Shown here: piece after piece, positions 12,170 to 29,829 of the stretch | Position numbering within the stretch: the first letter of the stretch is position 1 | How the letters are laid out: each line of letters opens with the position of its first letter | Source: Promicromonospora citrea | Lineage (GTDB): Bacteria > Actinomycetota > Actinomycetes > Actinomycetales > Cellulomonadaceae | Reading direction: 5' to 3' | NCBI RefSeq assembly: GCF_013004695.1 | Contig: NZ_JABEMG010000031.1 | Coordinates: 1-38,900 of the forward strand | DNA: 38,900 nucleotides | The notes under the pieces: model-generated | What the model was told of the DNA's origin: nothing | Database searches by the model: none | What the model saw: only the letters and a program-made list of their open reading frames with translations | Position numbers and translations under genes: made by a program

Positions 12170-13663
12170 TCAGCCCAGCACCGACTCCAGCTCGCCCGCC
12201 ACCAGGTCGACGAACGCGTCCGGCGCCCCCTCCGGGAGCAGCCCCGGCAGCGTGAGCAGCGAGCGCAGGTCCTCCTCCGCGCCGGCGAGCCCCGCGACGT
12301 CGCCCAGGCCGTCGCCGCCGCCGGGCACCTCCGCGGCATCGACCAGCGCGGCGAGCTCATCGGCCCGCGGGTCGTCGACGCCCTCGCCCGTGTGGACCCG
12401 GCGTCCGACGAAGGCGGCCCAGGCCGCGAGCCCGAAGGCGACGCCGCGCGGCTCGCGCCCGGCGGCCAGGGCCTCGGCGAGCACGCCGCCCCAGCGGAAC
12501 GGGATCTTCTGCGTGCCGTCCATGGCGACCTGCGTCGTCGTGTGCCCGGTGTGCGGGTTGGCGAAGCGCGCGAGGATCTGCTCGCCGTACGCGTGCAGGT
12601 CCAGGCCGTCGGGCGGGGAGAGGGTCGGCAGCGCGTCCTCGAACAGGTACTGCCGCGCCCGCTCGGCGATCACGGGGTCGGTCACGGCCTCGGCGATCGT
12701 GGCGTGGCCCGCGATCCACCCGGAGTAGGCGACCAGCGAGTGGGTGCCGTTGAGCAGCCGCAGCTTGGCCTGCTCGAAGGGTGCGACGTCCTTGGTCAGC
12801 GTCGCCCCTGCGGCCTCCCACGCGGGGCGCGGCCCGGCGAACCGGTCCTCGATCACCCACTGCGCGAACGGCTCACCGACCACCAGCCCCTCGTCCCGCA
12901 CCCCGAGCAGCGCGCTCACGGCGTCGCGCTGCTCGGGCGTCGTCGCGGGCACGATGCGGTCGACCATCGAGCACGGGAACGTGACCCGCGCGCCGAGGTA
13001 CTCCCGCAGGGCGTCCCCCTCCGCGCCGGGCAGCGCGGCGTCGACCGCGGACCGCACCAGGCCCTCGAGAACCCGACCGTTGTCGACCATGTTGTCGCAG
13101 GTCAGCACGGTCAAAGGTGCGCCGGAGGGCGCCCGCGCGGCGAGCCCGCGCACGAGCAGGCCGATCGCCGACACGGCCGGTGCCGCGCCGGCCCCCGCGA
13201 GCGCCTCGAGGTCCGGGCCGACGACGGAGGTGTCGAGCGACCCGTCCGGCCGCCGCGCGTACCCCTTCTCGGTGATGGTCAGGGTCACGACGTGCGTGGT
13301 CGGCGCGGCGATCGTCTCGAGCACCCGCGCGGTCTCCTCCGCCGGGTAGGCGACGTCGACCACCGACCCGATCAGCTCGACCGACGACTCCCGCTCCCCC
13401 GCGGTGAGCACCGTGTAGACGCCGCCCTGGGGCCGGAGCTGGTCGCGCACGGTCGCGGAGCGCTGGGTCACGCCGAGGATCCCCCACGCCGTGTCGCCCG
13501 TGGCCAGCGCGGCGCGCTCGGTGTAGACGGCCTGGTGCGCCCGGTGGAACGCGCCGATGCCGAGGTGGACGATGCCGACGGCCGTCGGAGCGACGGGCGC
13601 GTCGACGCCCTCGGGGACGCGGTCCCTGTGCAGGCGGTCCTGCGGGTGGTCCTCAGTCGTCAT
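12170..13663 (-). CDS. uxuB: Fructuronate reductase / mannitol dehydrogenase family
   Basis: A 497-residue polyol-specific long-chain dehydrogenase. It has the NAD-binding region VGIVHLGIGAFHRAHQAVY at the N-terminus and the family catalytic motif K-x4-N-x2-H in KLRLLNGTHS (K300, N305, H308). Family members include mannitol 2-dehydrogenase, UxuB and UxaB. Because it follows a uronate-linked importer and is divergent from uronate isomerase, reduction of D-fructuronate to D-mannonate with NADH is the best assignment; mannitol or tagaturonate activity remains possible. ATG 13663 follows GAAGGAGG and the gene overlaps the upstream permease by 11 bp. It is the last gene of the leftward LacI-controlled operon. 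Confidence 0.85.
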   Translation of the reverse strand: MTTEDHPQDRLHRDRVPEGVDAPVAPTAVGIVHLGIGAFHRAHQAVYTERAALATGDTAWGILGVTQRSATVRDQLRPQGGVYTVLTAGERESSVELIGSVVDVAYPAEETARVLETIAAPTTHVVTLTITEKGYARRPDGSLDTSVVGPDLEALAGAGAAPAVSAIGLLVRGLAARAPSGAPLTVLTCDNMVDNGRVLEGLVRSAVDAALPGAEGDALREYLGARVTFPCSMVDRIVPATTPEQRDAVSALLGVRDEGLVVGEPFAQWVIEDRFAGPRPAWEAAGATLTKDVAPFEQAKLRLLNGTHSLVAYSGWIAGHATIAEAVTDPVIAERARQYLFEDALPTLSPPDGLDLHAYGEQILARFANPHTGHTTTQVAMDGTQKIPFRWGGVLAEALAAGREPRGVAFGLAAWAAFVGRRVHTGEGVDDPRADELAALVDAAEVPGGGDGLGDVAGLAGAEEDLRSLLTLPGLLPEGAPDAFVDLVAGELESVLG

Positions 13664-14516
13664 CGCGTGCCTCCTTCACCTGTGCCACGAGCTGCGTCGG
13701 GTTCACGAACCGCAGCGCCACCACGAGCATCGCGAGCATGGTCGCGGTGTAGATCACCGACATGGCCGAGATGAGCTGCCTCGCCTCGCCGCCGCCGGCC
13801 GCCGTCATGCCACGGTAGATCGCCACGACGAGCGTGTCCGACCCGGGGCCGGAGACGAGGAACGTCAGCTCGAAGAGCCCGACGGTCCGGACCAGCACCA
13901 GGATGCCTGCCGCGAGGATGCCCGGCACGAGGAGCGGTGCGAGCACGCGCGTGAACACCTGCCGGGTCCTGGCGCCGCACATGCGCGCGGCGGACTCGAT
14001 GGCCGGGTTGATCTGCTCGATGAACGGCGTCATGGTCAGGATGACGAACGGCACCGACGGCACGAGGTTGACCAGCACGACGGCGGTCAGCGTGCGCCCG
14101 AGCCCGAACGAGTACATGACGGTCGCGAGCGGGATGCCGTAGGTGATGGGCGGCATGAGCACGGGCAGCAGGAACAGCAGCATGACGACGCGCTTGCCGG
14201 GGAACTCCCGCCGCGCCAGCACGTACGCGGCGGGCACGCCCACCAGCACGGAGATGACGACGACGAGCAGTGCCACCCCGACCGTGACGCCGACGACCTC
14301 GCCGAGCGAGAACCGGTCCCAGGCCTCGGCGTAGCGGTCGGTGGTGAACCCCTCGGGCAGCCAGGTGGCGAACCACTGGCGGCCGAACGAGTCGACGACC
14401 ACGGCGACGAGGATGCCGAGCAGGAACACTCCGAACGCGGTCATGCCCGCCCAGACGAGCCAGGTGGAGGGGCGGGCGGCGAGACGCCGCTCGCCCGGTG
14501 CGACAGTGGCGGCCAT
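13653..14516 (-). CDS. ABC permease, PotC/FeT-like (non-CUT1)
   Basis: A 287-residue permease with six predicted helices. Its EAA loop reads ESAARMCGARTRQVFTRVLA, in which the CUT1 'EAA.IDG' pattern is replaced by the 'AAR..GA' form of polyamine/opine/phosphonate and ferric-iron importers. The helices include LVVVISVLVGVPAAYVLARRE, also typical of PotC-like subunits. It starts at 14516 in a TGATG overlap with the upstream permease stop. Its partners are the next three genes. Location before uxuB points to a uronate or other sugar-acid cargo. Confidence 0.88.
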   Translation of the reverse strand: MAATVAPGERRLAARPSTWLVWAGMTAFGVFLLGILVAVVVDSFGRQWFATWLPEGFTTDRYAEAWDRFSLGEVVGVTVGVALLVVVISVLVGVPAAYVLARREFPGKRVVMLLFLLPVLMPPITYGIPLATVMYSFGLGRTLTAVVLVNLVPSVPFVILTMTPFIEQINPAIESAARMCGARTRQVFTRVLAPLLVPGILAAGILVLVRTVGLFELTFLVSGPGSDTLVVAIYRGMTAAGGGEARQLISAMSVIYTATMLAMLVVALRFVNPTQLVAQVKEARDDD

Positions 14517-15442
14517 CAGCCCTTACCTCCCGTGGTCCCGCGGTACAGGAGCGAGCGGAGGCCGAGCACGGCCACCACGACGAGCAGCTCGACCGCCCCC
14601 ATCATGAGCGCGATGGTGGAGGCCATCGCGTAGTCGTTCTGCTCGCCGAACGCCCGGAACGCCATGAGGGACATGACGCGGGTGGAGCCCATGGCGTCAC
14701 CGACGAGGCGCGCCGACGGGAACACGGAGAAGGCGAGCACGAAGGTGAGCACGAACGTCGTGGCGAGGCCGGGCGCGAGCAGCGGCAGCACGATCCGCCG
14801 GAACCGCTGCCACCAGCCGGCGCCGAGCGTCCGCGCGGCCTGCTCGAGCGACGGGTCGATGCCCGACAGGTAGGACGAGATGAGCAGGAACGCGAACGGG
14901 AACCCGGTGATGACCAGCGAGAACATCACGCCGAGGTAGTTGTTCACGAGCTGCAGCGGCTCGTCGATCAGCCCGGCCTGGAGCAGCGCCCGGTTGAGCC
15001 AGCCCTGGCGCCCGGCGAAGATCAGCAGGCCCTGGGCGGTGAGCACGGTGCCGAGCGTGATCGGCAGCACGAGCAGCGAGGTGAGCAGGCGCTTGCCCCG
15101 GAACCGGTGCCGCAGCACCATCGCGACCGGGATCGACGCGAGCACGTTGAACAGCGCGGCAGGCAGCGCGAGCCGCATCGTGATCCCGATGGAGTCGAAC
15201 ACGAACGGGTCGCGGAAGAACGCCACGTAGTTGGCGAACACGCCGCCGCCCCACTGCTCCTGCATCGCCGCCGTCGGCTGGACGGTGAGCCCGATGCCGT
15301 AGGAGAACGGGTAGACGAACAGCGCGACCGCCACCACGAGCCCTGGCACCAGGAGGAGCAGGGTCGGGTCGATGCCCCGCTCGGCCAGGCGGTGCCGCAG
15401 GCTCGCGGTGGACCGCTGCGCGCCACCCGTGCGGCTGGTCAC
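14516..15442 (-). CDS. ABC permease, PotB/FeT-like (non-CUT1)
   Basis: A 308-residue permease with an N-terminal cytoplasmic segment, first helix LLLLVPGLVVAVALFVYPF, a periplasmic stretch NYVAFFRDPFVFDSIGITMR and EAA loop EQAARTLGAGWWQRFRRIVL. The 'AARTLGA' form is that of PotB-like permeases, not CUT1. GTG at 15442 overlaps the ATPase stop (GTGA), indicating coupling. It forms the heterodimeric channel with the 13653-14516 protein. Confidence 0.88.
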   Translation of the reverse strand: MTSRTGGAQRSTASLRHRLAERGIDPTLLLLVPGLVVAVALFVYPFSYGIGLTVQPTAAMQEQWGGGVFANYVAFFRDPFVFDSIGITMRLALPAALFNVLASIPVAMVLRHRFRGKRLLTSLLVLPITLGTVLTAQGLLIFAGRQGWLNRALLQAGLIDEPLQLVNNYLGVMFSLVITGFPFAFLLISSYLSGIDPSLEQAARTLGAGWWQRFRRIVLPLLAPGLATTFVLTFVLAFSVFPSARLVGDAMGSTRVMSLMAFRAFGEQNDYAMASTIALMMGAVELLVVVAVLGLRSLLYRGTTGGKG

Positions 15443-16563
15443 GCCGCCACCTCCTGCGGCACGGGTGCGTCGAGCGACTCGGGGAACACGAGCACGCGCT
15501 CGACCGGCGCCGTCAGCCGCACCGCGCCGCCCACGACGGGCGGCGTCGCCGACCGCGCGTGGAGCATGACGTCGCCCGCCTGCACGCTCACGGCGTGCTC
15601 GCGCCCGTGGTACTCGACCACGGCCACGGCGCCGCCGATCGCGCCGGCCCCGCCGTCCGCGGCGGCGCCGGGTCCCGCGACCACGAAGTCCTCCGGTCGC
15701 ACGGCCACACGCACGCTGTCGCCTGCCCGCAGGGCGCCGACGGCGCGGCCCGTGAGCCGGACGCCGTCGGCACCGCCCGTGCCCGGCAGCTCCACGACGG
15801 CCTCGCCGCCCGAGGCCGAGACGACGGTCGCGGGCAGGATGTTGCGGTAGCCCATGAAGTCGGCGACGTACCAGCTCGTCGGGCTCTCGTAGAGCTCGTC
15901 GGGCGTGCCGACCTGCTGCACGCGGCCCTCGCGCATGACGACGAGGCGGTCGGCCAGGGACAGCGCCTCCTCCTGGTCGTGCGTCACGTAGATGGTGGTC
16001 AGCCCGAGCGACTGGTGCAGGCGCCGGATCTCGGTGCGCATGTCGAGGCGCAGCTTGGCGTCCAGGTTGGACAGCGGCTCGTCCATGAGCACGAGCGACG
16101 GCTCGAGCACGACGGCGCGCGCGATGGCGACGCGCTGCTGCTGGCCGCCCGAGAGCTGGCCGGGCAGCTTCCTGGCGTGCTCACCGAGCTTGACCAGCTC
16201 GATCGCCGCGCGCACGCGCCGGTCGGTCTCGGCGCGCGGCACGCCCTGCATCTGCAGGCCGAACGCCACGTTCTTCTCGACCGACAGGTGCGGGAACAGC
16301 GCGTACGACTGGAACACCATGCCGAACCCGCGACGCTCGGGCGGCAGCGTGTCGATGCGCCGGCCGTCGAGCAGGATCTCGCCGTGCGTGAGCGGCAGCA
16401 GGCCGGCGAGGCAGTTCAGCGCCGTCGACTTGCCGCAGCCGGAGGGGCCCAGCAGGGCGACGAACTCGCCCGCGCGGATGGTCAGGTCGAGGCCGGCGAG
16501 GGCGTCCACGCCGCCGAAGCGCCGGCCGACGCCCCGCAGCTCGAGGGACTCGAACGCGCTCAC
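15439..16563 (-). CDS. ABC transporter ATP-binding protein, PotA/FbpC-like
   Basis: A 374-residue ATPase with Walker A GPSGCGKST, Q-loop FQSYALFPHLSVEKNVAFGL, signature LSGGQQQRVAIARA, Walker B LVLMDEPLSNLD, and H-loop THDQEEALSLAD. Residues about 240-374 form a TOBE-like C-terminal domain (FMGYRNILPATVV ... VRVAVRPEDFVV), usual in PotA, FbpC and MalK proteins. It energises the importer made with the neighbouring permeases and lipoprotein. It starts at GTG 16563 in a GTGA overlap with the binding-protein stop; longer open reading upstream is antisense or frame-shifted coding of that gene. This is the only complete ABC importer in the window with its own ATPase. Confidence 0.93.
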   Translation of the reverse strand: MSAFESLELRGVGRRFGGVDALAGLDLTIRAGEFVALLGPSGCGKSTALNCLAGLLPLTHGEILLDGRRIDTLPPERRGFGMVFQSYALFPHLSVEKNVAFGLQMQGVPRAETDRRVRAAIELVKLGEHARKLPGQLSGGQQQRVAIARAVVLEPSLVLMDEPLSNLDAKLRLDMRTEIRRLHQSLGLTTIYVTHDQEEALSLADRLVVMREGRVQQVGTPDELYESPTSWYVADFMGYRNILPATVVSASGGEAVVELPGTGGADGVRLTGRAVGALRAGDSVRVAVRPEDFVVAGPGAAADGGAGAIGGAVAVVEYHGREHAVSVQAGDVMLHARSATPPVVGGAVRLTAPVERVLVFPESLDAPVPQEVAA

Positions 16564-17789
16564 CCCTCCTCCACCTTGCCGCCGCCGATCTCGCGGTCCC
16601 AGATGTCGAAGGCCTGCACCATGGAGTCCGCGTCGAGCGGCACGACGGCGTCCTGCGACTCGATGAGCTCGTCGAACAGCGGGCGGCCGTACTCCTCGAT
16701 GACCTGCTGCGACTCCTCCGGTGCGAGGTCGATCGTCGCGCCGTCGACCGCGGGACCCGGGTAGAAGTAGCCGGAGTCGTACGCCTTGGCGTTCTGCTCG
16801 GGCGTGAGCATGTCCTGCAGCAGGAGCAGGATCGCGCTGATCTTGTCGGCGCTCTGGCCGCGGGGGATGGCGGCGTAGTGCGCGTCGGTGACCCACGTGA
16901 AGTCGTCGAACGCCGACGCCTCGAGCGTGTCCGGGAGCTGGCCCTCGGCACGCGGGGCGATCTCCCAGCCGGTCGTCGTCGGGACCATCGCCCACGTGCC
17001 GTCGGCCATGTTGGTCACGACCTGGCCGGTGCCCGTCGGGTAGGTGTCGACGTACTGCCCGAGCTCCTTGAGGTACGCCCAGGTCTTGTCCCAGCCGTTC
17101 TCGGGGTCGGTCGGGTCCTCGTCGCCCAGGAGGTACGGCAGGCCCATGAGGAACGTCCGGCCCGGGCCGGAGTTCGCGGGGCGCGCGTAGCCGAACTTGC
17201 CGGGGTTGGCCTCGGCCCACTCCAGCAGCTCGTCGGGCGTGGCGGGCGGCGTGCCGACGACCTCGGGGTCGTACTGCAGCAGCGGCCCGGACGGGTAGTA
17301 CGTCGTCACGACGCCGTAGCCCTGGGCGAGCTCCTGCATGTTCGCGGCGGGCTCCAGGTAGTTCTCCTGGTTGGTCAGCCGGTCACCGTAGTCGTCCACG
17401 ACCGGCAGCCACAGGTCCTGGCCGATGCCGGCCGAGAGCCCGTCGTTGCCGGTGAACACGACGTCGATGGACAGGTTGCCGCTGTCCACCTGCGGCTTGA
17501 CGATGCCCGTGACGTCGGGAGCGCCGCCGGTCTCCCAGGTCACGGACTCGATGACGTCGGGGTTGTTCTCGACGAACTCCTCGACCATGCCCTCGGTCAG
17601 CCGCTGGTTGCCCGCGACGTCGAGGATGTTGAGGGTGACGGGCTCCGAGGGGGTCTCGGGCACGGCGGCCGGGTCGGTGACGGCTGCGCCGCCGCCCTCG
17701 CCGCCGGGGGGCGCGGGCGGGGTACAGGCGGTGAGCAGGGTGAGCGCCGCGACGCCGACGAGCGCGGCGGCCTTCTTCGAGGTGCGCAT
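16560..17789 (-). CDS. Solute-binding lipoprotein of the uronate-linked ABC importer
   Basis: A 409-residue extracellular binding protein with a lipobox LLTACTPP (lipidated Cys22) and a Gly/Pro-rich linker. The mature start VTLNILDVAGNQRLTEGMVEEF and the blocks QDLWLPVVDDYGDRL, KFGYARPANSGPGRTFLMGLPY and ANMADGTWAMVP-like (NMADGTWAMVP) resemble PotD/iron-type (cluster D/E) proteins rather than MalE. It would capture the substrate outside the cell for the permease pair. ATG 17789 is preceded by GAGAGAGGAAGG. It lies 56 bp after the LacI gene, with no separate operator seen in the gap, so both probably share a transcript. Confidence 0.88.
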   Translation of the reverse strand: MRTSKKAAALVGVAALTLLTACTPPAPPGGEGGGAAVTDPAAVPETPSEPVTLNILDVAGNQRLTEGMVEEFVENNPDVIESVTWETGGAPDVTGIVKPQVDSGNLSIDVVFTGNDGLSAGIGQDLWLPVVDDYGDRLTNQENYLEPAANMQELAQGYGVVTTYYPSGPLLQYDPEVVGTPPATPDELLEWAEANPGKFGYARPANSGPGRTFLMGLPYLLGDEDPTDPENGWDKTWAYLKELGQYVDTYPTGTGQVVTNMADGTWAMVPTTTGWEIAPRAEGQLPDTLEASAFDDFTWVTDAHYAAIPRGQSADKISAILLLLQDMLTPEQNAKAYDSGYFYPGPAVDGATIDLAPEESQQVIEEYGRPLFDELIESQDAVVPLDADSMVQAFDIWDREIGGGKVEEG

Positions 17790-17845: not shown

Positions 17846-18853
17846 TCAGGTGCCCGCGCCGGCCGGAGCGGGCCCGGAGGACCCGCGGATGACGAGCTCG
17901 ACGGGGAGCTGCGCGCTCGCCGGTGCGCTGTCGCGCAGCCGGGCGAGCAGGAGGTCGACGGCGCGCCCGCCCAGGCGGGCGAGCGGCGCGTGGACCGTGG
18001 TGAGGGCCGGCGAGAACATGGCGGCCATACGGACGTCGTCGAAGCCGACGACCGACATCTCGCCGGGCACGTCGACGCCGCGGTCCCGCAGCCGGTCCAG
18101 GATGCCGATGGCCATGAGGTCGTTGAACGCGGTCACGGCCGTGACCCCGCGCGCCAGCGCGTGATCGGCGGCCTGGACGCCGCCCTGGAAGTAGGGCTGG
18201 AAGCTGCCGAGCTCCACGAGCGTCACGCCCCAGCGCTCGGCGGCCGCCTGCAGCCCGGCGACGCGTCGCCGCCCGGACCACGACGTCGGCGGGCCCGCCG
18301 CGATGCCGACCGAGCGGTGCCCGAGCGCGGACAGGTGACCGAGCACCTGGTCCACACCGGCCGCGTCGTCGACCGCGATGTACGGCACCTCGTCCGCGCC
18401 GTCGGCGCCGAGCGAGAGCTCGCGGCTCGCGAGCACGACGGTGACGCCGGCCAGCGCGGCGCGCAGGCTCTCGTCGTCGGACCGGGGCGAGGCCACCACC
18501 ATGCCGTCCGTGCGGGCGGCGAGCGCCCGGATGAGCTCGGCCTCCGCGGCCGGGTCCTCGTCCGAGTCGGCCACGAACACGTCGTACCCCTCGGCGCGGG
18601 CCCTGGCCTGGACGCCCTTGGTCACGGACGCGAAGTAGGGGTTCTCCAGGTCGGGCACCACGAGCCCGACGGCGTGCATCCGGCCCCTGCGCAGGCCGCT
18701 CGCGGCCCGGTTGGTGCGGTAGCCGAGCTCGTCGGCGGCACGGGTCACGCGGTCGCGCGTCTCGGCGGCCACGCGCTCCGGCGTGCTCAGGGCACGCGAG
18801 ACCGTCGAGATCGAGACCCCGGCGGCGCGTGCGACGTCGTGCACCGTGACCAT
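17846..18853 (-). CDS. LacI-family regulator of the glucuronate genes
   Basis: A 335-residue LacI/GalR protein. The helix-turn-helix reads VTVHDVARAAGVSISTVSRALS, followed by a hinge region with YRTNRAASGLRRGR. The effector domain begins at VGLVVPDLENPYFASV and contains VTAFNDLMAIGILDRL and VVGFDDVRMAAMFSP. ATG 18853 follows GAGGAGG; longer starts extend over an operator. Two identical inverted sites lie in the divergent region, one over its own -35 and one after its likely transcription start, so autoregulation is expected. I infer that it controls both the importer-uxuB operon and uxaC, with a uronate or pathway intermediate as inducer. Confidence 0.92.
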   Translation of the reverse strand: MVTVHDVARAAGVSISTVSRALSTPERVAAETRDRVTRAADELGYRTNRAASGLRRGRMHAVGLVVPDLENPYFASVTKGVQARARAEGYDVFVADSDEDPAAEAELIRALAARTDGMVVASPRSDDESLRAALAGVTVVLASRELSLGADGADEVPYIAVDDAAGVDQVLGHLSALGHRSVGIAAGPPTSWSGRRRVAGLQAAAERWGVTLVELGSFQPYFQGGVQAADHALARGVTAVTAFNDLMAIGILDRLRDRGVDVPGEMSVVGFDDVRMAAMFSPALTTVHAPLARLGGRAVDLLLARLRDSAPASAQLPVELVIRGSSGPAPAGAGT

Positions 18854-18881
18854 GGCACCTCCTCGTGACCCGTGCGTCGCT

Positions 18882-18893
18882 GCGAACGTTTGC
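18882..18893. promoter_or_regulatory. LacI-type operator, copy 1 (GCGAACGTTTGC)
   Basis: A near-palindrome 29 bp upstream of the LacI start codon. It is the exact reverse complement of 18913-18924, and the centres are 31 bp apart, close to three helical turns. Confidence 0.75.
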
Positions 18894-18896
18894 GCC

Positions 18897-18926
18897 ATAG
18901 TGCCCGAAGGTTGCAAACGTTCGCAA
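18897..18926 (-). promoter_or_regulatory. Candidate promoter of the leftward lacI-importer-uxuB operon
   Basis: On the minus strand TTGCGA (18926-18921) and CACTAT (18902-18897) are separated by 18 bp. The -35 lies inside operator copy 2 and operator copy 1 begins 3 bp beyond the -10, so a bound repressor would cover both. Confidence 0.5.
18913..18924. promoter_or_regulatory. LacI-type operator, copy 2 (GCAAACGTTCGC)
   Basis: Inverted exact copy of 18882-18893, extended to TTGCAAACGTTCGCAA (18911-18926), a palindrome apart from one pair. It overlaps the -35 of the leftward promoter and the likely -35 zone of the rightward one. Confidence 0.75.
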
Positions 18927-18944: not shown

Positions 18945-18968
18945 TACGATGACCGCGCAAGCGCTTAC
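18945..18968 (+). promoter_or_regulatory. Candidate -10 and operator of uxaC
   Basis: TACGAT (18945-18950) fits an actinobacterial -10. GCAAGCGCTTAC (18957-18968), with perfect core AAGCGCTT, lies where transcription would begin. It resembles a LacI-family site but differs in sequence from the two upstream copies, so a second regulator or a weaker site is possible. Confidence 0.45.
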
Positions 18969-18999
18969 CGCCCGGCGACGACGCCTCAGGAGGACACCC

Positions 19000-20424
19000 G
19001 TGACCGACACCTGGACGCTGCATCCCGACCGGGCGCTGCCCGCCGACCCGACGACCCGGCCGATCGCCCGCGAGATCTACGCCGCGGTCCGGGACCTGCC
19101 GATCGTGTCGATGCACGGCCACGTCGACGTCGCCGCCTTCGCCGACGACGAGCCGTTCCCCGACCCCGCCCAGCTCCTCGTGGTCCCCGACCACTACCTG
19201 ACCCGCATGCTCGTGTCCCAGGGCGCGCGGCTGCCGGAGCTGGGCGTCGGCCCGGCAGGCACGCCGGGCCTGGAGACGGACCCGCGCGAGATCTTCCGCC
19301 GGTTCTGCGCGGGCTGGAAGCACTTCCGCGGCACGCCCACCCGGTACTGGCTCGAGCACGAGCTCGTCGAGATCTTCGGGGTCACCGTGCGACCGTCGGC
19401 CGAGACCGCCGACGAGGTGTACGACCAGGTGGCCGCCGCGATCGCCGACCCGGCGTTCCGGCCGCGCGCGCTGCTCGACCGGTTCCGGATCGAGACCATC
19501 GCGACCACCGACCCGGCGTGGAGCCCGCTGGACGAGCACGCCAAGCTGGCGGCCGAGCTGCCCGGCCGCGTGCTGCCCACCTTCCGGCCCGACCCCCTCC
19601 TGCACCCGGCCCGCGCGACCTGGCGGGACGACCTGGACCGGCTCGCGGCGGCGTCGGGCATCGCGACCGACACGTACGCGGGGTTCCTCGACGCGCTGCG
19701 CGAGCGGCGCGCCGCCTTCGTCGCGGCGGGCGGCCTGGCGACGGACCACGGGCACCTCGCCGCGGACACGACCCCGCTGCCCGACGACGTCGCGCAGGCG
19801 CTGTTCGACAAGGCGCGCGGCGCGGACGGGGCCGGCCTCAGCACGGAGGAGGAGGCCGCGTTCTCGGCGCACATGCTGTTCCAGATGGCGGCGATGTCCG
19901 CGCAGGACGGCCTGGTCATGCAGCTCCACCCGGGCGTGCTGCGCGACCACGACCCTGCCGTCGCGGCCGCCTTCGGCCCCGACAAGGGCTACGACATCCC
20001 CGTCGCGGCGGAGTTCGCCCGCGGGCTGCGGCCGGTGCTCGAGGCGTTCGGCCACGCGGAGTCGTTCCGACTCGTCGCGTTCACCATCGACGAGGACGTG
20101 TACTCGCGCGAGCTGGCGCCGCTGGCCGGCGTGTACCCCGCGCTGCGGCTCGGCGCACCGTGGTGGTTCCTCGACGCGCCGGACGCGATGCGCCGGTTCC
20201 GCGAGGCCGCGACCGAGACCGCCGGGTTCTCGAACATGTCCGGGTTCGTGGACGACACCCGTGCGTTCTGCTCGATCCCCGCGCGTCACGACCTGGCCCG
20301 CCGCGTGGACGCCGGCTACCTCGCGCGGCTCGTCGCGGAGCACCGGCTCGAGCTCGACGAGGCGGTCGACACCGCCGCCGACCTGGCCTACCACCTGCCG
20401 AAGCAGGCCTACGCGCGGCCCTGA
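19000..20424 (+). CDS. uxaC: Uronate (glucuronate) isomerase
   Basis: A 474-residue cytosolic enzyme of the UxaC family (about 470). It converts D-glucuronate to D-fructuronate, and D-galacturonate to D-tagaturonate, as the first step of the Ashwell pathway. The amidohydrolase-fold H-x-H metal motif is in IVSMHGHVDV near the N-terminus. Other family blocks are FRIETIATTDPAWSPLDEH, MQLHPGVLRDHDP, LGAPWWFLDAP and the C-terminal FVDDTRAFCSIPARHDLARR. The GTG at 19000 has AGGAGG at the right distance; the open frame reaches farther upstream only through the operator region. It diverges from the LacI gene and lies upstream of the alpha-glucuronidase that would supply glucuronate or its 4-O-methyl ether. 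Confidence 0.93.
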   Translation: MTDTWTLHPDRALPADPTTRPIAREIYAAVRDLPIVSMHGHVDVAAFADDEPFPDPAQLLVVPDHYLTRMLVSQGARLPELGVGPAGTPGLETDPREIFRRFCAGWKHFRGTPTRYWLEHELVEIFGVTVRPSAETADEVYDQVAAAIADPAFRPRALLDRFRIETIATTDPAWSPLDEHAKLAAELPGRVLPTFRPDPLLHPARATWRDDLDRLAAASGIATDTYAGFLDALRERRAAFVAAGGLATDHGHLAADTTPLPDDVAQALFDKARGADGAGLSTEEEAAFSAHMLFQMAAMSAQDGLVMQLHPGVLRDHDPAVAAAFGPDKGYDIPVAAEFARGLRPVLEAFGHAESFRLVAFTIDEDVYSRELAPLAGVYPALRLGAPWWFLDAPDAMRRFREAATETAGFSNMSGFVDDTRAFCSIPARHDLARRVDAGYLARLVAEHRLELDEAVDTAADLAYHLPKQAYARP

Positions 20425-20491: not shown

Positions 20492-20609
20492 CTCGACACC
20501 GAGCGCCGCGAGGCCCTGGCCACCCGGGCCTCGCTGCGGCAGAGTCGGAACCAGCGTCGGTATCACCGCACACCAGGACATCCATCGCACCACGGACGGG
20601 ACTCGACCC

Positions 20610-22691
20610 ATGACCACAACGCCCCACCCGGCCTGGCTGCCTGACGACGCGTTCACCGCGATCGGCCGCCGCCGGGTCGTCGTGGCGGGCGACGGCGCGC
20701 TCGCCGGGACCGTCGCCGAGGAGGTGGCCGCGGCCACCGCCCGGTTCGGCGGCTCGTTCTCCCGCCTCGAGGTCGGCGACGGTGTGGCCGACGCCGAGCT
20801 CGTGCTCACCCTGACCCCGCCCGGCCTGACCGAGCCCGGCCCGACCGAGCCCGGCGCCGACGTCGACGAGAGCTTCCGGTTCACGCGCGAGGGGGGCGCC
20901 GTCGTCGTGCAGGCGCCGTGCGACGCCGGGCTGCTGCACGGCCTGTTCCACGTGGTGCGCCTCGGCGAGGCGGCGTTCGACGGCCCCGACGCCGACGAGA
21001 CGCACGCACCCGCCACGGGCCTGCGCATGCTCGACCACTGGGACAACGTCGCGGTGCACCCGGTGATGGGCCAGGTCGAGCGCGGCTACGCGGGTGGCTC
21101 GCTCTTCTACGACGACGGCGCCGTCCGGGCGGACCTCTCCCGGCTCGAGCGGTACGCGCGCCTCCTGGCCGCCGTCGGCATCAACCGGGTGGCGATCAAC
21201 AACGTCAACGTGCACGCGCGCGAGGCGTTGCTGCTCACCGACGACCTCCCCGAGGTCGCGCGCGTGGCCGCCGTGTTCCGGCGGTGGGGCATCCGGGTGC
21301 ACCTCGCGGTGTCGTTCGCGTCGCCGATCCTGCTCGGCGGCCTGGCCACGTCCGACCCGCTCGACGCCGACGTCGCCCACTGGTGGGTCCGCGCCGCGGC
21401 CCGGGTCTGGACCGCGATCCCCGACTTCGGCGGGTTCGTCGTCAAGGCCGACTCCGAGGGGCAGCCCGGCCCGTTCGCGTACGGCCGCACGCACGCCGAC
21501 GGCGCGAACATGCTCGCCGCCGCCGTCGCGCCGTACGACGGGCTGGTCCACTGGCGTGCGTTCGTCTACGACCACCGGCAGGACTGGCGCGACCGGTCCA
21601 CCGACCGCGCCCGTGCCGCGTACGACCACTTCCGCCCGCTCGACGGCGCCTTCGCCGACAACGTGGTCGTGCAGGTCAAGTACGGCCCGATGGACTTCCA
21701 GGTGCGCGAGCCGGTGTCGCCCGTGCTCGCGGCGATGCCGCGCACGCGCATCGCGCTCGAGCTCCAGGTGACGCAGGAGTACACGGGTCAGCAGCGGCAC
21801 GCCGTCTACCTCGGCCCGCAGTGGAGCGAGATCCTCGGCTTCCGGTTCTGGGCGGCGCCCGGCGACGCCGCGGCCGACGACTCGCCCACCGTCGCCGACC
21901 TGGCGACGGGCCGTGGCAAGGCCGCGGAGGACCCGGGCACCGGCGCGTGGCGCAAGCCGGCCGGCGGCTTCGCGGCCGTCTCGAACACGGGCGACGACGA
22001 GTTCTGGACCGGTCACCCGTTCGCGCAGGCGAACCTGTACGCCTACGGGCGGCTGTGCTGGGACCCGGGTCTCGACCCGTCGGCCCTGCTCGACGAGTGG
22101 GCGGGGCTCACGTTCCCGGGCGCACCCGACGCCGTCCGCGCGGCCCTGCACGCCGTGCTCGACCGGTCGTGGGAGACGTACGAGCAGTACACGACCCCGC
22201 TCGGCGTCGGCTTCATGGTGCGCCCCGGCCACCACTACGGCCCTGACGTCGACGGCTACGAGTACACGCCGTGGGGCACCTATCACTTCGCGGACCGCGA
22301 CGGCATCGGCGTCGACCGCACGACGCGGACGGGCACGGGGTACGCGGGCCAGTACCCCTCGCCGTGGCGCGAGGTCTACGAGTCCGTCGAGACGTGCCCC
22401 GACGAGCTGCTGCTCTTCTTCCACCACGTGCCCTACACGCACGTGCTGCACAGCGGCAGCACCGTGATCCAGCACGTCTACGACACCCACTTCGAGGGCG
22501 TCGAGCGGGTCGAGCGCATGATCGAGGCATGGTCGGCGGTGTCGCCCCTGGTGGACGAGCGGCTCGCGGAGCGCGTGGCCGAGCGGCTCGCCGAGCAGCT
22601 CCGCAGCGCGACCGAGTGGCGCGACCAGGTCAACACCTACTTCCTGCGCAAGTCCGGCATCCCCGACGAGCGGGGCCGCACGATCTACTGA
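20610..22691 (+). CDS. Alpha-glucuronidase, glycoside hydrolase family 67
   Basis: A 693-residue enzyme without signal peptide, hence intracellular. It removes (4-O-methyl-)glucuronate from the non-reducing end of xylo-oligosaccharides produced from glucuronoxylan. Family motifs are clear: VAINNVNV, VKADSEGQPGPFAYGRTHADGANMLA with the acid/base Glu at 283, KYGPMDFQVREP with Asp362, and LQVTQEYTGQQRH with Glu390; the last two correspond to the catalytic pair (Asp365/Glu393) of the Cellvibrio enzyme. The C-terminal domain contains TPLGVGFMVRPGHHYGPDVDGYEY and WGTYHFADRDGIGVDRT. Length is usual. The ribosome site is weak. It needs an importer for aldouronates; the two nearest are the leftward importer at 13653-17789 and the one at 26130-29766. 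Confidence 0.95.
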   Translation: MTTTPHPAWLPDDAFTAIGRRRVVVAGDGALAGTVAEEVAAATARFGGSFSRLEVGDGVADAELVLTLTPPGLTEPGPTEPGADVDESFRFTREGGAVVVQAPCDAGLLHGLFHVVRLGEAAFDGPDADETHAPATGLRMLDHWDNVAVHPVMGQVERGYAGGSLFYDDGAVRADLSRLERYARLLAAVGINRVAINNVNVHAREALLLTDDLPEVARVAAVFRRWGIRVHLAVSFASPILLGGLATSDPLDADVAHWWVRAAARVWTAIPDFGGFVVKADSEGQPGPFAYGRTHADGANMLAAAVAPYDGLVHWRAFVYDHRQDWRDRSTDRARAAYDHFRPLDGAFADNVVVQVKYGPMDFQVREPVSPVLAAMPRTRIALELQVTQEYTGQQRHAVYLGPQWSEILGFRFWAAPGDAAADDSPTVADLATGRGKAAEDPGTGAWRKPAGGFAAVSNTGDDEFWTGHPFAQANLYAYGRLCWDPGLDPSALLDEWAGLTFPGAPDAVRAALHAVLDRSWETYEQYTTPLGVGFMVRPGHHYGPDVDGYEYTPWGTYHFADRDGIGVDRTTRTGTGYAGQYPSPWREVYESVETCPDELLLFFHHVPYTHVLHSGSTVIQHVYDTHFEGVERVERMIEAWSAVSPLVDERLAERVAERLAEQLRSATEWRDQVNTYFLRKSGIPDERGRTIY

Positions 22692-23830: not shown

Positions 23831-24511
23831 TTACGCGGAGGCCGTGAACCGCACCTCGACGTCGGTCAGCACGGCGGTGGCGTTGCGCAGCACGAGCGCG
23901 AGCCAGACGACCGCGAGCAGGCCGAACACCACCTCGGTCACGAGCACGACCATGCCCGCCGCGAGCACGAGGAGGGAGAGCGACCCCAGCGTGACCAGCG
24001 GGCGGGCCGCGAGGTAGTAGGCGGCCAGCCGCGCCGCGTCCCGCGTCCGGAAGCCGAAGAACGAGACGATGACCAGCGCGTTCACCAGCCAGAGCAGCAC
24101 ACCGACGCCGATCACCACGAGCGCGGGGGCGAACCACCCGGGCACCCCCGCCGCGCGCAGGCCGCCGAGGGAGACGGCGACGATGCCGAGCACCACGAGC
24201 GCGGGAGCCCAGACCCGCAGGGCGTCGGCCCAGTTCTGGCGGTACCCGCGCCAGAACGACGCGGCGGGCGTCAGCGCGTCGGCCTTCGCCCGCCCGCGGA
24301 GCGCGTAGAGCCCCGCCGACGCGGCGGGACCCAGCGGGAGGAGGCAGAGCACGACGAGCGGCGCGTTGGTGACCGAGCGGTCGAGCAGCGTCAGCGCGAG
24401 CAGGCCCGGCAAGGAGGTCAGCACGAGCAGCAGCTCGACCACGAGGTACCAGTAGACCGCGCTCGCACCCCGCCCCAGCGGGCCGTCGCCGTACTCCCTG
24501 CGCTCAGTCAC
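23831..24511 (-). CDS. YesL-like DUF624 membrane protein, second copy
   Basis: A 226-residue membrane protein of normal YesL length. It has four to five hydrophobic segments (LVVELLLVLTSLPGLLALTLL, LVVLCLLPLGPAASAGLYAL, APALVVLGIVAVSL, ALVVIGVGVLLWLVNALVIVSFFGF and the C-terminal VLAAGMVVLVTEVVFGLLAVVWLAL). The P.GPA.SAGLYALR.....A....FWRGYRQNW block is the DUF624 signature region, equivalent to that in the 6901-7659 protein. Role unknown; the family is encoded with sugar importers. The GTG start at 24511 overlaps the GH39 stop by 8 bp, which places it in that operon, although its ribosome site is poor. Confidence 0.8.
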   Translation of the reverse strand: MTERREYGDGPLGRGASAVYWYLVVELLLVLTSLPGLLALTLLDRSVTNAPLVVLCLLPLGPAASAGLYALRGRAKADALTPAASFWRGYRQNWADALRVWAPALVVLGIVAVSLGGLRAAGVPGWFAPALVVIGVGVLLWLVNALVIVSFFGFRTRDAARLAAYYLAARPLVTLGSLSLLVLAAGMVVLVTEVVFGLLAVVWLALVLRNATAVLTDVEVRFTASA

Positions 24512-26030
24512 GCGCCACGATCCGCGCGTCGTCGACCCACGGCGGCGTCTCGTCCCGCACGGGGTCGAGGGTCACCAGGGTCACGCCGTGCCGGCCGAGC
24601 GTCAGGTCGAGGTCCACCCGCCCGCCGTCGGCCCCCGGTGCGACAGGCAGCGAGAACGCGCGCCGGGCGGGCTCGCTCGCCTCGTGCAGCGCGTCCAGCT
24701 GCCAGGCCGACGGCGACGCGGGGCGTCCCATCTCGCGCCAGGCGGCCCAGGCGTTGCCCGCGGTCTCGTCGACGTCGTGCCGCATGGCGAACACCCGGCC
24801 GCCGGTCGGCGCAGGGATGCTCAGGCGCACCTCGTGCCGGTCGGGCTCCTCGGGGCTCTCCGAGCCGCCGACGGGCTGCCAGGCCAGGACCGTGACCTGT
24901 CCCGTGCCGGCGTGCCGCGTGACCAGGTGGTCGTCGCCGCGCGCCAGCACCTCCTGGCCCATCCGCGCCATGAACGCGTACAGGTGGTACGTCGGCTTGC
25001 GCACCTGGCGGTACGCCAGCATGCCGAACCCGCCGTGGAAGAACGACGCCGGGACGCCGTTCTCCTCGAACACGTCGGAGAACGTCCAGTAGGAGAACGA
25101 GTCGGCGTGCGTGCCGCCGTTCGCGAGGACCGGGGCGAGGTAGGCCGCGTTGTAGGCCGTGTCGTGCACGGGGTTGTCCGGCCGGTAGCTCGTGTTGAAC
25201 TCGGTGATGTGCAGCGGCCGGTCCGCGAGCACCGTGCCGGCGAGGATCTCGCGCGGGCGGGCGAACTGGTCGAGCAGGTTCTGCGGCGCCCGCAGGGTCT
25301 GGTAGACGCCGAACGGCACGTGCTGGGCGGGGCCCGAGCTGTACGCGTGCACGGAGAGGAAGTCGGCGGGCAGGTCGCGGGCGGTGACGAAGTCCGCGAA
25401 GGGCTTCCACCAGTCGTCGGCGCCGGGCGAGATCGCCGGGCCGCCGACCTGGAGCTCGGCGTCGACCTCCTTGACGGCGAGCACGGACGCCTCGTAGAGG
25501 CGGAAGTACGCCTCCTGGTCGGCGTCCTTCCAGAAGATGTCGAGGTTGGGCTCGTTCCACACCTCGACCGGCCAGGTGCGCACCTCGTCGAGGCCGTACC
25601 GGTCGATCAGGTGGCGCAGCAGCGCCTGCACGAGCTGGGCCCACTCGGCGTGGTCCCGCGGCGGCGTGACGTTGCCGTGCCACCAGAACACGGTCTGGTC
25701 GCCGGAGGCCAGGGCGCTCGGCATGAAGCCGAGCTCGAGGAACGGCTTGATGCCGATCTCCAGGTAGGCGTCGATCACCTGGTCGACGTAGGTGAAGACG
25801 TACGCGGTGCCCCGGTGGCCGGCGGCGTCGTACGGGCGGTGCACGGCGACGTCGTCGTGCAGGATGCCGTGCCCCCTGATGTACCGAAAGCCGATGTCGC
25901 GCTGCGCCAGGGCCAGCGAGTCCTGGTAGTCGCGGCGGAGCGCGAGGTTGAACCGGCCGGTCCCGACGCAGGTGCGCCAGGCGTCGCTGAGGGTTCCGGC
26001 GGGCTCGGTCGGCACGATGGTGCGGGGCAC
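24504..26030 (-). CDS. Beta-xylosidase, glycoside hydrolase family 39
   Basis: A 508-residue enzyme without signal peptide, so cytoplasmic. It releases xylose from the non-reducing end of short xylo-oligosaccharides with retention. The (beta/alpha)8 domain carries VEVWNEPNLDIFW with acid/base Glu160 and LHITEFNTSYRPDNP with nucleophile Glu277. These numbers coincide with those of the Thermoanaerobacterium XynB enzyme, and length is also the same class (about 500). The C-terminal beta-sandwich covers about residues 360-508. GTG 26030 follows AAGGAG; a longer start at 26102 would cross a hairpin. It lies in an operon behind an importer and could finish what the alpha-glucuronidase begins. Confidence 0.94.
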   Translation of the reverse strand: MPRTIVPTEPAGTLSDAWRTCVGTGRFNLALRRDYQDSLALAQRDIGFRYIRGHGILHDDVAVHRPYDAAGHRGTAYVFTYVDQVIDAYLEIGIKPFLELGFMPSALASGDQTVFWWHGNVTPPRDHAEWAQLVQALLRHLIDRYGLDEVRTWPVEVWNEPNLDIFWKDADQEAYFRLYEASVLAVKEVDAELQVGGPAISPGADDWWKPFADFVTARDLPADFLSVHAYSSGPAQHVPFGVYQTLRAPQNLLDQFARPREILAGTVLADRPLHITEFNTSYRPDNPVHDTAYNAAYLAPVLANGGTHADSFSYWTFSDVFEENGVPASFFHGGFGMLAYRQVRKPTYHLYAFMARMGQEVLARGDDHLVTRHAGTGQVTVLAWQPVGGSESPEEPDRHEVRLSIPAPTGGRVFAMRHDVDETAGNAWAAWREMGRPASPSAWQLDALHEASEPARRAFSLPVAPGADGGRVDLDLTLGRHGVTLVTLDPVRDETPPWVDDARIVARD

Positions 26031-26073
26031 GTGTCTCCTTGGTGTTCGGTGGGGTGGATGTCCCGGGACGCCA

Positions 26074-26108
26074 CCAGGTGTGCGACCCGTCGAGGGTCGC
26101 ACACCTGG
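26074..26108 (-). terminator. Intra-operon hairpin between binding protein and xylosidase
   Basis: CCAGGTGTGCGACCC and its exact reverse complement (15-bp stem, loop GTCGA) lie 22 bp after the binding-protein stop and 44 bp before the xylosidase start. It could reduce downstream transcription or protect the 3' end of the binding-protein mRNA, giving more binding protein than enzyme. Confidence 0.6.
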
Positions 26109-26129: not shown

Positions 26130-27770
26130 TCACTCGCCGGCGACGGCGCTGTTGGCGAGCTCGACGTAGTCGGCCATGCCCGCCGCCTCGAGCTCGGCGA
26201 CGTAGTCGTCCCACTCGCTGAGCGGCCGGTCACCGACGATGAACTGCGCGGTGTTCTGGTAGACGATGTCCTGCAGGTTCGTCTGGTAGAGCGTGGCCTG
26301 CTCCTGCTGCATCTCGTCGTACGTGATCGCGGGCGGCAGGGGCAGCTCCTCCTTCTGGTTCATCCCGTCGAGGAACTCGACGACCTCGTCGCGCAGCATC
26401 GACTTGTCCAGCTCCTCGGTCGAACCGTGGGCCAGCATCCAGACGCCGTTGTGGTAGCCGAAGTCCTTGCGGAGCTCCTTGGGCGCGCCGGGGTTGAGGC
26501 CGTTGACGTCGATGTCGTCCTTGAGGACGCGCTTGTCGCCCTCCCACTCGAACGTCTCGCCCTCGACGCCCCACTTGGAGAACTCCAGGCCCTCGTCCGA
26601 GTAGTACAGCCAGTCGACGAACTGCAGCATCGCCAGGAAGTCGTCGTCCTTCGCCGCCTCGGCGCCGAACACGATGCCCGACTCGCGGCGCGAGCCCGCG
26701 ACCAGGTAGCTGCCGTACGGACCGGCCGGCACGACGATCTGGTGCACCTCGGCCTCCTTGGTGCCGAGCTGCTCGAAGTTGTCGCGGTACTTCACGAGCT
26801 CCTGGTCGTTCGAGCTGATGGCGGCGACGCGGCCGGACGCGAACTTCTGCTCGCCCTGCTCCATCTCCTGGGTGACGGACTCGGGGTCCATCAGGCCGTC
26901 CTCGACGAGGGAGGCGAAGTACGTGACGAGGTCGCGGTAGCCGTCCGAGGCGCCGGCGTAGGTGAACTCACCGGCCTCCTCGTCCCACCACAGGCCGTTG
27001 ATGAAGCCGGTGCCCGCCGTCGTGCCGAAGTTGGGTGCCGCGGCGTTGAGGGTCTGCTCCATCGGGCTGTTGATCGACCACTTGTCGCTGAACGGGTAGT
27101 CGATGTCCGGGTTGGCCTCCTTGACGGCCTCGAGCTGCTCCTTGAACTCGTCCCAGGTCTCGGGGTCCTCCGTGATGCCCGCCTTCTCCCAGAGGTCGGC
27201 ACGGACGGCGATGGAGTACTGCGGCTTCGCGATCTCGTGGATGCCGGGCAGGAGGTAGAACTTGCCGTCCTCCTGCCGGAGCTGGTCGACCTCGGCCTGC
27301 AGGCCCCACTTCTCGATCTTGTCCTGGAAGTTCGGCATGTACTGGACGTAGTCGGAGATCGGGAGCAGCGCGTTGCGGAACTGCGCCTCCTCGCCGGCGT
27401 AGATGGAGGGCATGATGTCGGGACCGTCACCCGAGCTGATGAGCACCGAGCGGCGCGTGGCCAGGTCCGCGAGCGGCACGTTGACGTACTCGAACTCGAC
27501 GTTCTGGTTGTTCTTGAGGTGCTCGACGATCGGCCAGTCGTCCTTGAACGGGTAGTCGGGGTGGTCGCGGTACAGGAGGCTGAACTCGACCGGCTCCGTC
27601 GCCTTGAACGTGGTGCCGACCTCGAAGTCCTCCATGTAGCCGACCTGCGACTCCATGTCGATCTCGCCGGACTCCTCCGCGCCGCCGCCGCTGGTCGAGC
27701 ACGCGGTGAGCGTGACGACCAGGGCCGACGCCGCGAGGCCCGCGGCAGCCCTCCTCGGGGTGATCCTCAT
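26130..27770 (-). CDS. Large solute-binding lipoprotein, LipO/YtcQ type
   Basis: A 546-residue binding protein with lipobox VTLTACSTSGGG (lipidated Cys24). It is longer than MalE-type proteins, as is normal for the LplA/LipO group that works with LplB/LplC permeases. Mature-part blocks include EPVEFSLLYRDHPDYPFKDDWPI, LISSGDGPDIMPSIYAGEE and the C-terminal QTNLQDIVYQNTAQFIVG.RPLSEWDDYV, the last typical of the group. Context suggests xylo-oligosaccharides or aldouronates as ligand (inference). ATG 27770 follows AAGGAGAACC. It is third in its operon, after both permeases, the reverse of the usual binding-protein-first order seen in the 9508-10842 system. Confidence 0.92.
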   Translation of the reverse strand: MRITPRRAAAGLAASALVVTLTACSTSGGGAEESGEIDMESQVGYMEDFEVGTTFKATEPVEFSLLYRDHPDYPFKDDWPIVEHLKNNQNVEFEYVNVPLADLATRRSVLISSGDGPDIMPSIYAGEEAQFRNALLPISDYVQYMPNFQDKIEKWGLQAEVDQLRQEDGKFYLLPGIHEIAKPQYSIAVRADLWEKAGITEDPETWDEFKEQLEAVKEANPDIDYPFSDKWSINSPMEQTLNAAAPNFGTTAGTGFINGLWWDEEAGEFTYAGASDGYRDLVTYFASLVEDGLMDPESVTQEMEQGEQKFASGRVAAISSNDQELVKYRDNFEQLGTKEAEVHQIVVPAGPYGSYLVAGSRRESGIVFGAEAAKDDDFLAMLQFVDWLYYSDEGLEFSKWGVEGETFEWEGDKRVLKDDIDVNGLNPGAPKELRKDFGYHNGVWMLAHGSTEELDKSMLRDEVVEFLDGMNQKEELPLPPAITYDEMQQEQATLYQTNLQDIVYQNTAQFIVGDRPLSEWDDYVAELEAAGMADYVELANSAVAGE

Positions 27771-27844
27771 GGTTCTCCTTCAGGGTGTGAACGCCGTCGC
27801 CTCTGACGGTCGGGACGGGGGCGGGTGGTGGTCGTGCGTGGCGG

Positions 27845-28759
27845 TCAGCCCTTGACGGAGCCGAGCATCACGCCGGACACGAAGTACTTCTGGATGAACG
27901 GGTACACGCAGACGATCGGCAGGACCGTGAGCAGCATCGCCACGGACTGGACGTTCGCCTGGATCTGCACGGTGTCGCTGCCGAGGTCGGTGGTGGACGT
28001 GGCCGCGGCGAGCAGGTTGCGCAGGTAGAGGGTGACCGGGTACATGTCGCGGTCGTTCAGGTACAGGTACGCCTGGAACCACGAGTTCCAGAACTGGACC
28101 GCGTAGAAGAGGGTCATCGTCGCGATGACCGCCTTCGACAGCGGCAGCACGATGCGGAAGAACACGCCGTACTGCGACATGCCGTCGATCTCGGCGGCCT
28201 CCTCGAGCTCCCGGGGGAAGTTGTCGAAGAACGACTTCATGACCAGCAGGTTGAAGACGTTGATCGCGCCGGGCACCACGATCGCCCAGATCGTGTTCTT
28301 GAAGCCCAGGGCGTCGATGAGCAGGTAGTTCGGGATCAGGCCGCCCGCGTACAGCATGGTCACCATGGCCAGGCCGACCAGGACGCCGCGGCCCTTCAGA
28401 TAGGGCTTGGACAGCGCGTACGCGAAGGTCGTGGTGAGCGCCATCGCGATGAGCGTGGCGAGGAGCGTGTACACGACCGTGTTCCGGTAGTTGACCCAGA
28501 AGATCGAGTCACCCATCACGCTCGCGAAGGTCGTGAGGTTGAACCCCCGCGGCCACAGGTTGACCTCCCCGGCGGCGATGTAGGCCTGCGAGCTGAACGC
28601 CTTCGCCACCATGTTGAGGAAGGGGTAGAGCGTGAGGAACGTGATGACCACCAGCAGGAACGCGTTGGCGATCCGGAACGCCCGGTAGCCCGGCGTGTCC
28701 CTGACCGTCGTCGTGGTGGTGCGGACCGCCGTGATGTCAGGAGTGTTCGTCGTCACCAC
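27845..28759 (-). CDS. CUT1 ABC permease, LplC/YtcP type
   Basis: A 304-residue permease with six predicted helices and EAA loop EAAEIDGMSQYGVFFRIVLP. LplC-type features are FLTLYPFLNMVAKAFSS near the N-terminus, the TMLYAGGLIPNYLL segment and the C-terminal FIQKYFVSGVMLGSVKG. GTG 28759 has GGGAG seven bases upstream; the adjacent GTG at 28756 would give a four-base GTGA overlap with the upstream permease and is equally possible. It forms the channel with the next protein. No ATPase gene accompanies the pair. Confidence 0.92.
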   Translation of the reverse strand: MVTTNTPDITAVRTTTTTVRDTPGYRAFRIANAFLLVVITFLTLYPFLNMVAKAFSSQAYIAAGEVNLWPRGFNLTTFASVMGDSIFWVNYRNTVVYTLLATLIAMALTTTFAYALSKPYLKGRGVLVGLAMVTMLYAGGLIPNYLLIDALGFKNTIWAIVVPGAINVFNLLVMKSFFDNFPRELEEAAEIDGMSQYGVFFRIVLPLSKAVIATMTLFYAVQFWNSWFQAYLYLNDRDMYPVTLYLRNLLAAATSTTDLGSDTVQIQANVQSVAMLLTVLPIVCVYPFIQKYFVSGVMLGSVKG

Positions 28760-29766: not shown

Positions 29767-29829
29767 CAAGTCCTCCGGTCACCGCGCCGTGCCGGGCCCT
29801 CCGGAGAGGGCGCCACGTCGTCGTGGAAC

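Follow-up and report, generated by a model that had tools for sequence, protein, structure and literature searches.

Which substrate is carried by an ATP-binding cassette (ABC) importer that resembles polyamine and iron systems and stands among genes for uronate breakdown? This question is raised by four adjoining genes of the soil actinobacterium Promicromonospora citrea, located at positions 13653-17789 on the reverse strand of a 38,900-nucleotide stretch of contig NZ_JABEMG010000031.1 (this whole stretch is called the window below). The four genes, called the cassette here, lie between a lacI gene and a uxuB-like gene, and the genes uxaC and GH67 (a glycoside hydrolase) are divergent from them. 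We think that the cassette probably encodes a high-affinity importer that uses ATP to take up hexuronate monomers, most likely D-glucuronate and possibly D-galacturonate, and we put the probability of this reading at roughly 75%. The substrate and the direction of transport are judged from the gene context, and the affinity and the repressor ligand named below are likewise inferred. Both sugar acids are among the main products when plant walls and mucus are broken down.

The cassette encodes a substrate-binding lipoprotein, an ATPase and two permeases, TM1 and TM2 (Table 1). Neighboring genes overlap by 1, 4 and 1 bases within the set, and TM2 overlaps the uxuB-like gene by a further 11 bases. 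From these overlaps it is credible that the four ABC genes and the uxuB-like gene form one coupled operon. A first-pass annotation of this DNA had described four frames in one coupled operon bracketed by lacI and uxuB, and the coordinates and overlaps bear this out. It had also read the EAA loops of the permeases as AARTLGA and AARMCGA, lacking IDG. The IDG-like pattern is a feature of CUT1 permeases. These loops were indeed read in TM1 and TM2, and the CUT1 pattern (I/V)DG was found in neither of them. The window's two other importers are of the CUT1 type, and their four permeases have EAARIDG, EAAAVDG, EAARIDG and EAAEIDG. Among relatives of the cassette, a loop of the type xxGA was present in 19 of 20 TM1 rows (it was not found by the pattern in one row) and in all 20 TM2 rows. 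The annotation was likewise right that the ATPase is a dedicated one: when the whole window was scanned in six frames for LSGGQ, LSGGE and MSGGQ, a single site was found, at 16155, and by this type of signature the ATPase of the cassette is the sole one in the window.

The importer had been labeled as non-CUT1 and of the polyamine/iron type. Our permease tree had 61 rows and drew on 21 loci chosen for breadth, two of which were too short for permease rows; it held no ferric (Fbp) reference. TM1 and TM2 each formed a fully supported clade of their own with a long stem, outside the CUT1, Pot/Ydc and Cys/Mod clades. The clades CUT1-F (100/98) and CUT1-G (100/99), with four rows each, excluded both permeases, and the non-CUT1 part of the label stands in the sense that the set is not nested in these clades. 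The polyamine part has become less certain. Approximately unbiased tests did not reject a position as sister to CUT1 (TM1, p=0.476; TM2, p=0.304) or, with the clade held, TM1 as sister to PotB (p=0.326), and TM2 was joined with PotC at a support of 91/56. A tree of the ATPases was given no weight for family placement, as its support for the set as one group was not firm (49/49) and its reference branches were very long. In NCBIfam, the permeases scored higher with sulfate, molybdate and polyamine models than with MalG/UgpA, the best hits being CysT/PotB and ModB/PotC, and the best hits of the ATPase were PhnT2/PotA. All of these scores were below the curated cut-offs; for the ATPase they were 358.8 against 457.7 (PhnT2), 348.5 against 482 (PotA) and 331.4 against 355.6 (potA subfamily), and the score with the ferric ATPase model was 289.7 against 496. 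The sequences thus leave the exact family less certain than the earlier label implied.

The binding protein was compared by hhalign with ten single reference sequences. E. coli YnjB was matched with a probability of 95.8% (E 7e-9, 187 columns), PotF with 25.7% and the remaining eight with less than 14%; PotF, MalE and UgpB were hardly matched. Judged by sequence, YnjB is the nearest named relative. The relationship is distant, since the protein scored 52.7 bits with NCBIfam PRK11622, which we take to be the YnjB model, far below the subfamily cut-off of 203. The YnjBCD system, which is annotated as a putative ABC importer, also differs in layout: it has a single long permease (YnjC) and a short ATPase (YnjD), where the cassette has a permease pair and a long ATPase that includes a TOBE domain. 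In the binding protein of the cassette, the residues R203, N206, R211, W275 and R280 are nearly invariant and are candidates for contacts with the carboxylate of a ligand.

No PDB chain matched the family profile at E<=1, and the single binding-protein sequence of the window gave one chance-level match in PDB (E 0.94). A predicted model of the protein (mean predicted local distance difference test score, 71.9) was searched with Foldseek. Among the best 50 of 1378 matches, polyamine and opine receptors matched best, with SpuD, SpuE, PotF and PotD and also the opine binders MotA and AgtB at the top; the target TM-scores of PotF/SpuD/MotA-type receptors were about 0.59-0.72. Sugar binders were close behind, 7v09 and the S. 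scabiei MalE (8art) being third and fourth. We give moderate weight to a PotF/SpuD/MotA-type fold of the binding protein. Because opine binders and MalE appear in the same list, the fold does not set the ligand.

These polyamine receptors, together with the NCBIfam best hits, are what speaks for an importer of polyamines, iron, phosphonates or thiamine that came to lie in this operon by chance. We regard such an importer as extremely unlikely, given that the scores stay below the curated cut-offs, that opine and sugar binders share the list, and that the linkage to uronate genes, described below, recurs in Actinobacteria and Proteobacteria. We rejected chance insertion into the operon on account of this recurrence.

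Of the 200 genomes in a family sample, 35 had the binding protein, and the weakest of its 38 matches had an E-value of 6.7e-155 (cut-off, 1e-8). The gene order of the cassette was conserved among the relatives. With E-values so far beyond the cut-off and a conserved order, the four-gene set is not a chance grouping. In a phylum sample of 396 genomes the binding protein was found in 7, including the genome of the window and one partial match. In a scan of named genomes, 80 candidate stretches yielded at least 57 loci. These lie in Promicromonospora, Isoptericola, Sanguibacter, Cellulomonas, Georgenia, Cryobacterium, Microbacterium, Brachybacterium, Tessaracoccus, Ruania, Arthrobacter and other genera, and also in Azospirillum (52%) and betaproteobacterial metagenome-assembled genomes (MAGs; 46%). 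The binding protein of P. thailandica was a 97% match to that of the window.

Uronate genes recurred near the cassette in other actinobacteria. Within 10 kb, at the 36 family-sample loci including the window, UxaC was present at 26, UxuB at 27 and either of them at 27; the three other ABC genes were present at 35 of the 36 and a LacI gene at 34. At 32 named loci outside the family sample, UxaC was found at 18, UxuB at 18 and either at 20. The second count leaves out 25 of the 57 named loci, whose genomes were already in the family sample, and some of the 32 (e.g., Cellulomonas sp. SG140) apparently belong to the same family. Most fetched stretches covered about 9 kb on each side of the binding-protein gene; those of L054 and L064 were placed off center to take in a UxaC gene already known, which in both lies within the 10-kb limit. 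Anywhere in the genome, UxaC was present in all 35 carriers of the binding protein but in 120 of the 165 non-carriers (p=4.9e-5 by Fisher's test, which ignores kinship; 12 of the 35 belong to one genus), and in 19 of the 20 genomes searched out of the 32 other named carriers. In a genome of the same genus, G048, the locus has kept uxaC, uxuB and GH67 and is without the importer, lacI and a good operator, as if these three had disappeared together or had never been acquired. When the neighbors were scanned at part of the loci that lack uronate genes (L047, L048, L051, L053, L060, L083, L085, L087, L104, L117, L138, L207 and L211), they showed no other pathway in common.

The linkage crosses the phylum border. 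A search of plasmid proteins gave 46 matching records, of which 12 were opened, and the proteobacterial cassettes on plasmids had 48-53% identity. The full set was present at 13 of the proteobacterial loci examined, and at 8 of these uronate genes stood beside it. In Sinorhizobium and Aureimonas the order was uxuA-GntR-uxaC-cassette with a UxuB match, and in Rhizobium grahamii it was uxuA-GntR-cassette. Ancylobacter had uxuA, uxuB-type and altronate dehydratase genes, Azospirillum B510 had a uxuB-type gene of the mannitol-dehydrogenase family, and two betaproteobacterial MAGs had the cassette followed by uxuB and, in one of them, by uxaC. In Gemmobacter, the cassette was accompanied by a match to a uronate dehydrogenase of solved structure (PDB 3rft, E 7.5e-63), by a lactonase of the SMP-30 type and by a KdgD-like gene, the last with a score below the cut-off. 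The isomerase route and the oxidative route share the hexuronate as their starting compound, and the substrate of uronate dehydrogenase is the uronate itself. Since two unrelated routes of degradation thus occur beside one importer with the hexuronate as their common substrate, the monomer is a likelier cargo than an aldouronate.

The earlier suggestion of a uronate or aldouronate importer can be divided on this basis. Its uronate half is supported by the linkage in both phyla. According to its other half, the importer would take up aldouronates, namely methylglucuronosyl xylo-oligosaccharides, which an intracellular GH67 enzyme would then split. GH67 does lie near uxaC in the window and at 13 of the 35 other family-sample loci, all within the 15 nearest relatives (L031-L045), and no obvious signal peptide was seen by eye in the first 60 residues of the window's enzyme. 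Beyond these relatives, a single one (L091) of 27 other named loci from actinobacteria had GH67, and it was found at 0 of 22 proteobacterial or plasmid loci (one of the 22 being a Streptomyces plasmid), where genes for the uronate monomer recur; moreover, a separate CUT1 set at 26133-29769 in the window could serve aldouronates. We therefore consider aldouronate uptake unlikely. A related sugar acid such as fructuronate, tagaturonate, mannonate or an aldonate might also be carried instead of glucuronate or galacturonate, because in Azospirillum B510, L122 and Rhizobium grahamii the cassette has genes of the UxuB type or UxuA beside it and no UxaC in reach. We think this very unlikely when the Gemmobacter dehydrogenase, which acts on the uronate itself, and the hexuronate as the compound common to both routes are considered.

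If the cassette is a hexuronate importer, it may work as follows. The sugar acid would be bound outside the membrane by the lipoprotein and would enter through the TM1/TM2 dimer, driven by a pair of ATPase subunits. It would then be fed into the 2-keto-3-deoxygluconate pathway by UxaC, the UxuB-like reductase and a UxuA encoded elsewhere in the genome. One UxuA match was found in the genome of the window, and also one partial match of the altronate/galactarate dehydratase type (101 of 136 positions). The UxuB-like protein scored 297.1 bits with the NCBIfam model for fructuronate reductase against 137 with that for tagaturonate reductase, both below cut-off. The LacI repressor would bind two operators, and the uronate or an intermediate would switch on both divergent arms.

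The palindrome TGCAAACGTTTGCA was found upstream of lacI with at most 3 mismatches at 76 of 86 loci, compared with 16 of 1,720 shuffled sequences; these 86 loci count some genomes twice, and the consensus was derived from the same upstream regions that were later counted. In a tally free of repeats at the same threshold, it was present at 32 of 35 family-sample, 21 of 23 other named and 1 of 3 phylum-sample loci. With at most 1 mismatch, the genome of the window has two copies between lacI and uxaC and one inside a long frame on contig C219, which we judged to be a chance copy. Carriers had 16 UxaC genes that were unlinked or were second copies, and the operator preceded 5 of these at a score of at least 14, a cut that we chose.

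Several observations weigh against a hexuronate importer. Neither UxaC nor UxuB was near at 9 of the 36 family-sample loci (L062 and L063 end at contig ends) or at 12 of the 32 other named loci (3 of these 12 stretches are shorter than 8 kb). Some unlinked loci adjoin amidases (Ruania) or unrelated genes, and a distant Streptomyces locus (35%) carries a LacI gene and a Gfo-type gene. No uronate genes were in reach of 5 of the 13 proteobacterial full cassettes (L117, L124, L138, L207 and L211; the stretch of L124 is cut short, and L138 is from Caballeronia). Of the 385 genomes in a sample of the class around Azospirillum, 5 had the binding protein (E 1e-60 or better); of five newly fetched loci from this sample, two had the full cassette without the searched uronate genes and three had a lone binding protein. 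Lone binding proteins without the ABC genes of the cassette were found at seven loci, and those of L139, L140 and L144 (Roseomonas and Phyllobacterium plasmids), about 45% to that of the window, lie behind nagB-nagA. The wider binding-protein family may have other ligands, and the nagB-nagA-linked relatives suggest an amino-sugar branch or the sharing of another importer. Finally, 10 of 24 genomes without the importer also have the operator ahead of UxaC at the same score. We dropped it as proof of a shared regulon; it marks a common type of regulator and is not specific to the importer.

On balance, we lean towards a wider interpretation, in which the cassette would represent a new ABC-importer subfamily outside the CUT1 clades and distant from the polyamine, sulfate and YnjBCD systems. 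It would be a hexuronate route common to Actinobacteria and Proteobacteria that spread with, or was recruited by, the two uronate pathways, and among its wider relatives the cargo would be other sugar acids or amino sugars.

The cassette shares its four-gene layout and dedicated long ATPase with the PotABCD, PotFGHI, YdcSTUV, MotA and AgtB systems. These systems also have the xxGA loop instead of IDG, and the predicted model appears to fold like SpuD, PotF, MotA and AgtB; the differences are the separate permease clades, the uronate gene context and the absence of a PDB relative at E<=1. We take TC 3.A.1.11 to be the class of polyamine, opine and phosphonate importers; CUT1 is TC 3.A.1.1, and the ferric-iron importers are TC 3.A.1.10. 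CUT1 systems (MalFGK, UgpAEC and the two sets of the window) likewise combine two BPD_transp_1 permeases with a binding protein whose fold is related, but the cassette differs from them in its EAA loops, its dedicated ATPase and its permeases outside both CUT1 clades. Hexuronate uptake itself is described, in the passages of PMC7660916 consulted, for the tripartite ATP-independent periplasmic (TRAP) transporter STM3169-3171, of which STM3169 binds D-glucuronate, and for ExuT of the major facilitator superfamily. The job predicted for the cassette is the same, as are the neighbors uxuA, uxuB and uxaC in some relatives, but neither of the two is an ABC transporter or has an ABC ATPase. A precedent for an iron-named importer with a sugar-derivative cargo is AfuABC, which the consulted part of PMC4546632 describes as carrying hexose phosphates with a cluster D binding protein; it differs from the cassette in having sugar phosphates as its cargo. 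Among the papers listed in literature searches, none pointed to a hexuronate importer of this ABC type, as judged on titles and the starts of abstracts. A 2019 study in the Journal of Bacteriology, reportedly on hexuronate regulons in Proteobacteria, may touch these genes. The passages of PMC9007349 and PMC4052901 consulted do not mention such an importer.

If our reading is true, it names a transporter where annotation gives a generic solute-binding protein and ABC permease, and it offers a testable assignment for dozens of genomes. It would also hint at what the related YnjB family binds, and it would be another case, like AfuABC, in which a family name misleads on the substrate.

Table 1. 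Genes and operator copies of the cassette locus, with positions in the window.
Feature	Position	Strand	Detail
UxuB-like fructuronate reductase (Mannitol_dh family)	12170..13663	-	11-base overlap with TM2
Permease TM2 (BPD_transp_1)	13653..14516	-	EAA loop ESAARMCGA
Permease TM1 (BPD_transp_1)	14516..15442	-	EAA loop EQAARTLGA
ABC ATPase with TOBE_2 (Pfam ABC_tran + TOBE_2)	15439..16560	-	GTG start
Substrate-binding lipoprotein (SBP_bac_8; distant YnjB relative)	16560..17789	-	409 aa; ATG start; lipobox LTAC, residues 19-22
LacI-family regulator	17846..18853	-	likely ATG start at 18853 behind GAGGAGG ribosome site
Second operator copy TGCGAACGTTTGCG	18881..18894	+	31 bases from the first
LacI-type operator TGCGAACGTTTGCA	18912..18925	-	between lacI and uxaC
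uxaC, glucuronate isomerase	18949..20424	+	NCBIfam equivalog, 508.9 bits (cut-off 387)
GH67 alpha-glucuronidase	20604..22691	+	start approximate

The longest lacI frame begins at a TTG at 18916 and covers an operator; the ATG listed in Table 1, with its ribosome site, is the likelier start. The CUT1 set at 26133-29769, whose layout we take to be LplABC-like, adjoins GH39 and DUF624 genes at 23831-26102 and is a candidate for aldouronate uptake. Elsewhere, a Sanguibacter genome has three copies of the binding-protein gene and a Cellulomonas genome has two (L050, L056 and L059), some without adjoining ABC genes, and L121-L124 of the betaproteobacterial MAGs have a tandem pair ahead of the ABC genes. 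In Ruania (L085 and L087), an amidase-family gene lies two genes past the cassette, with no uxaC or uxuB in reach. At the alphaproteobacterial locus L211, the cassette is located between a TauD-type dioxygenase gene and an ABC system of the peptide/nickel type.

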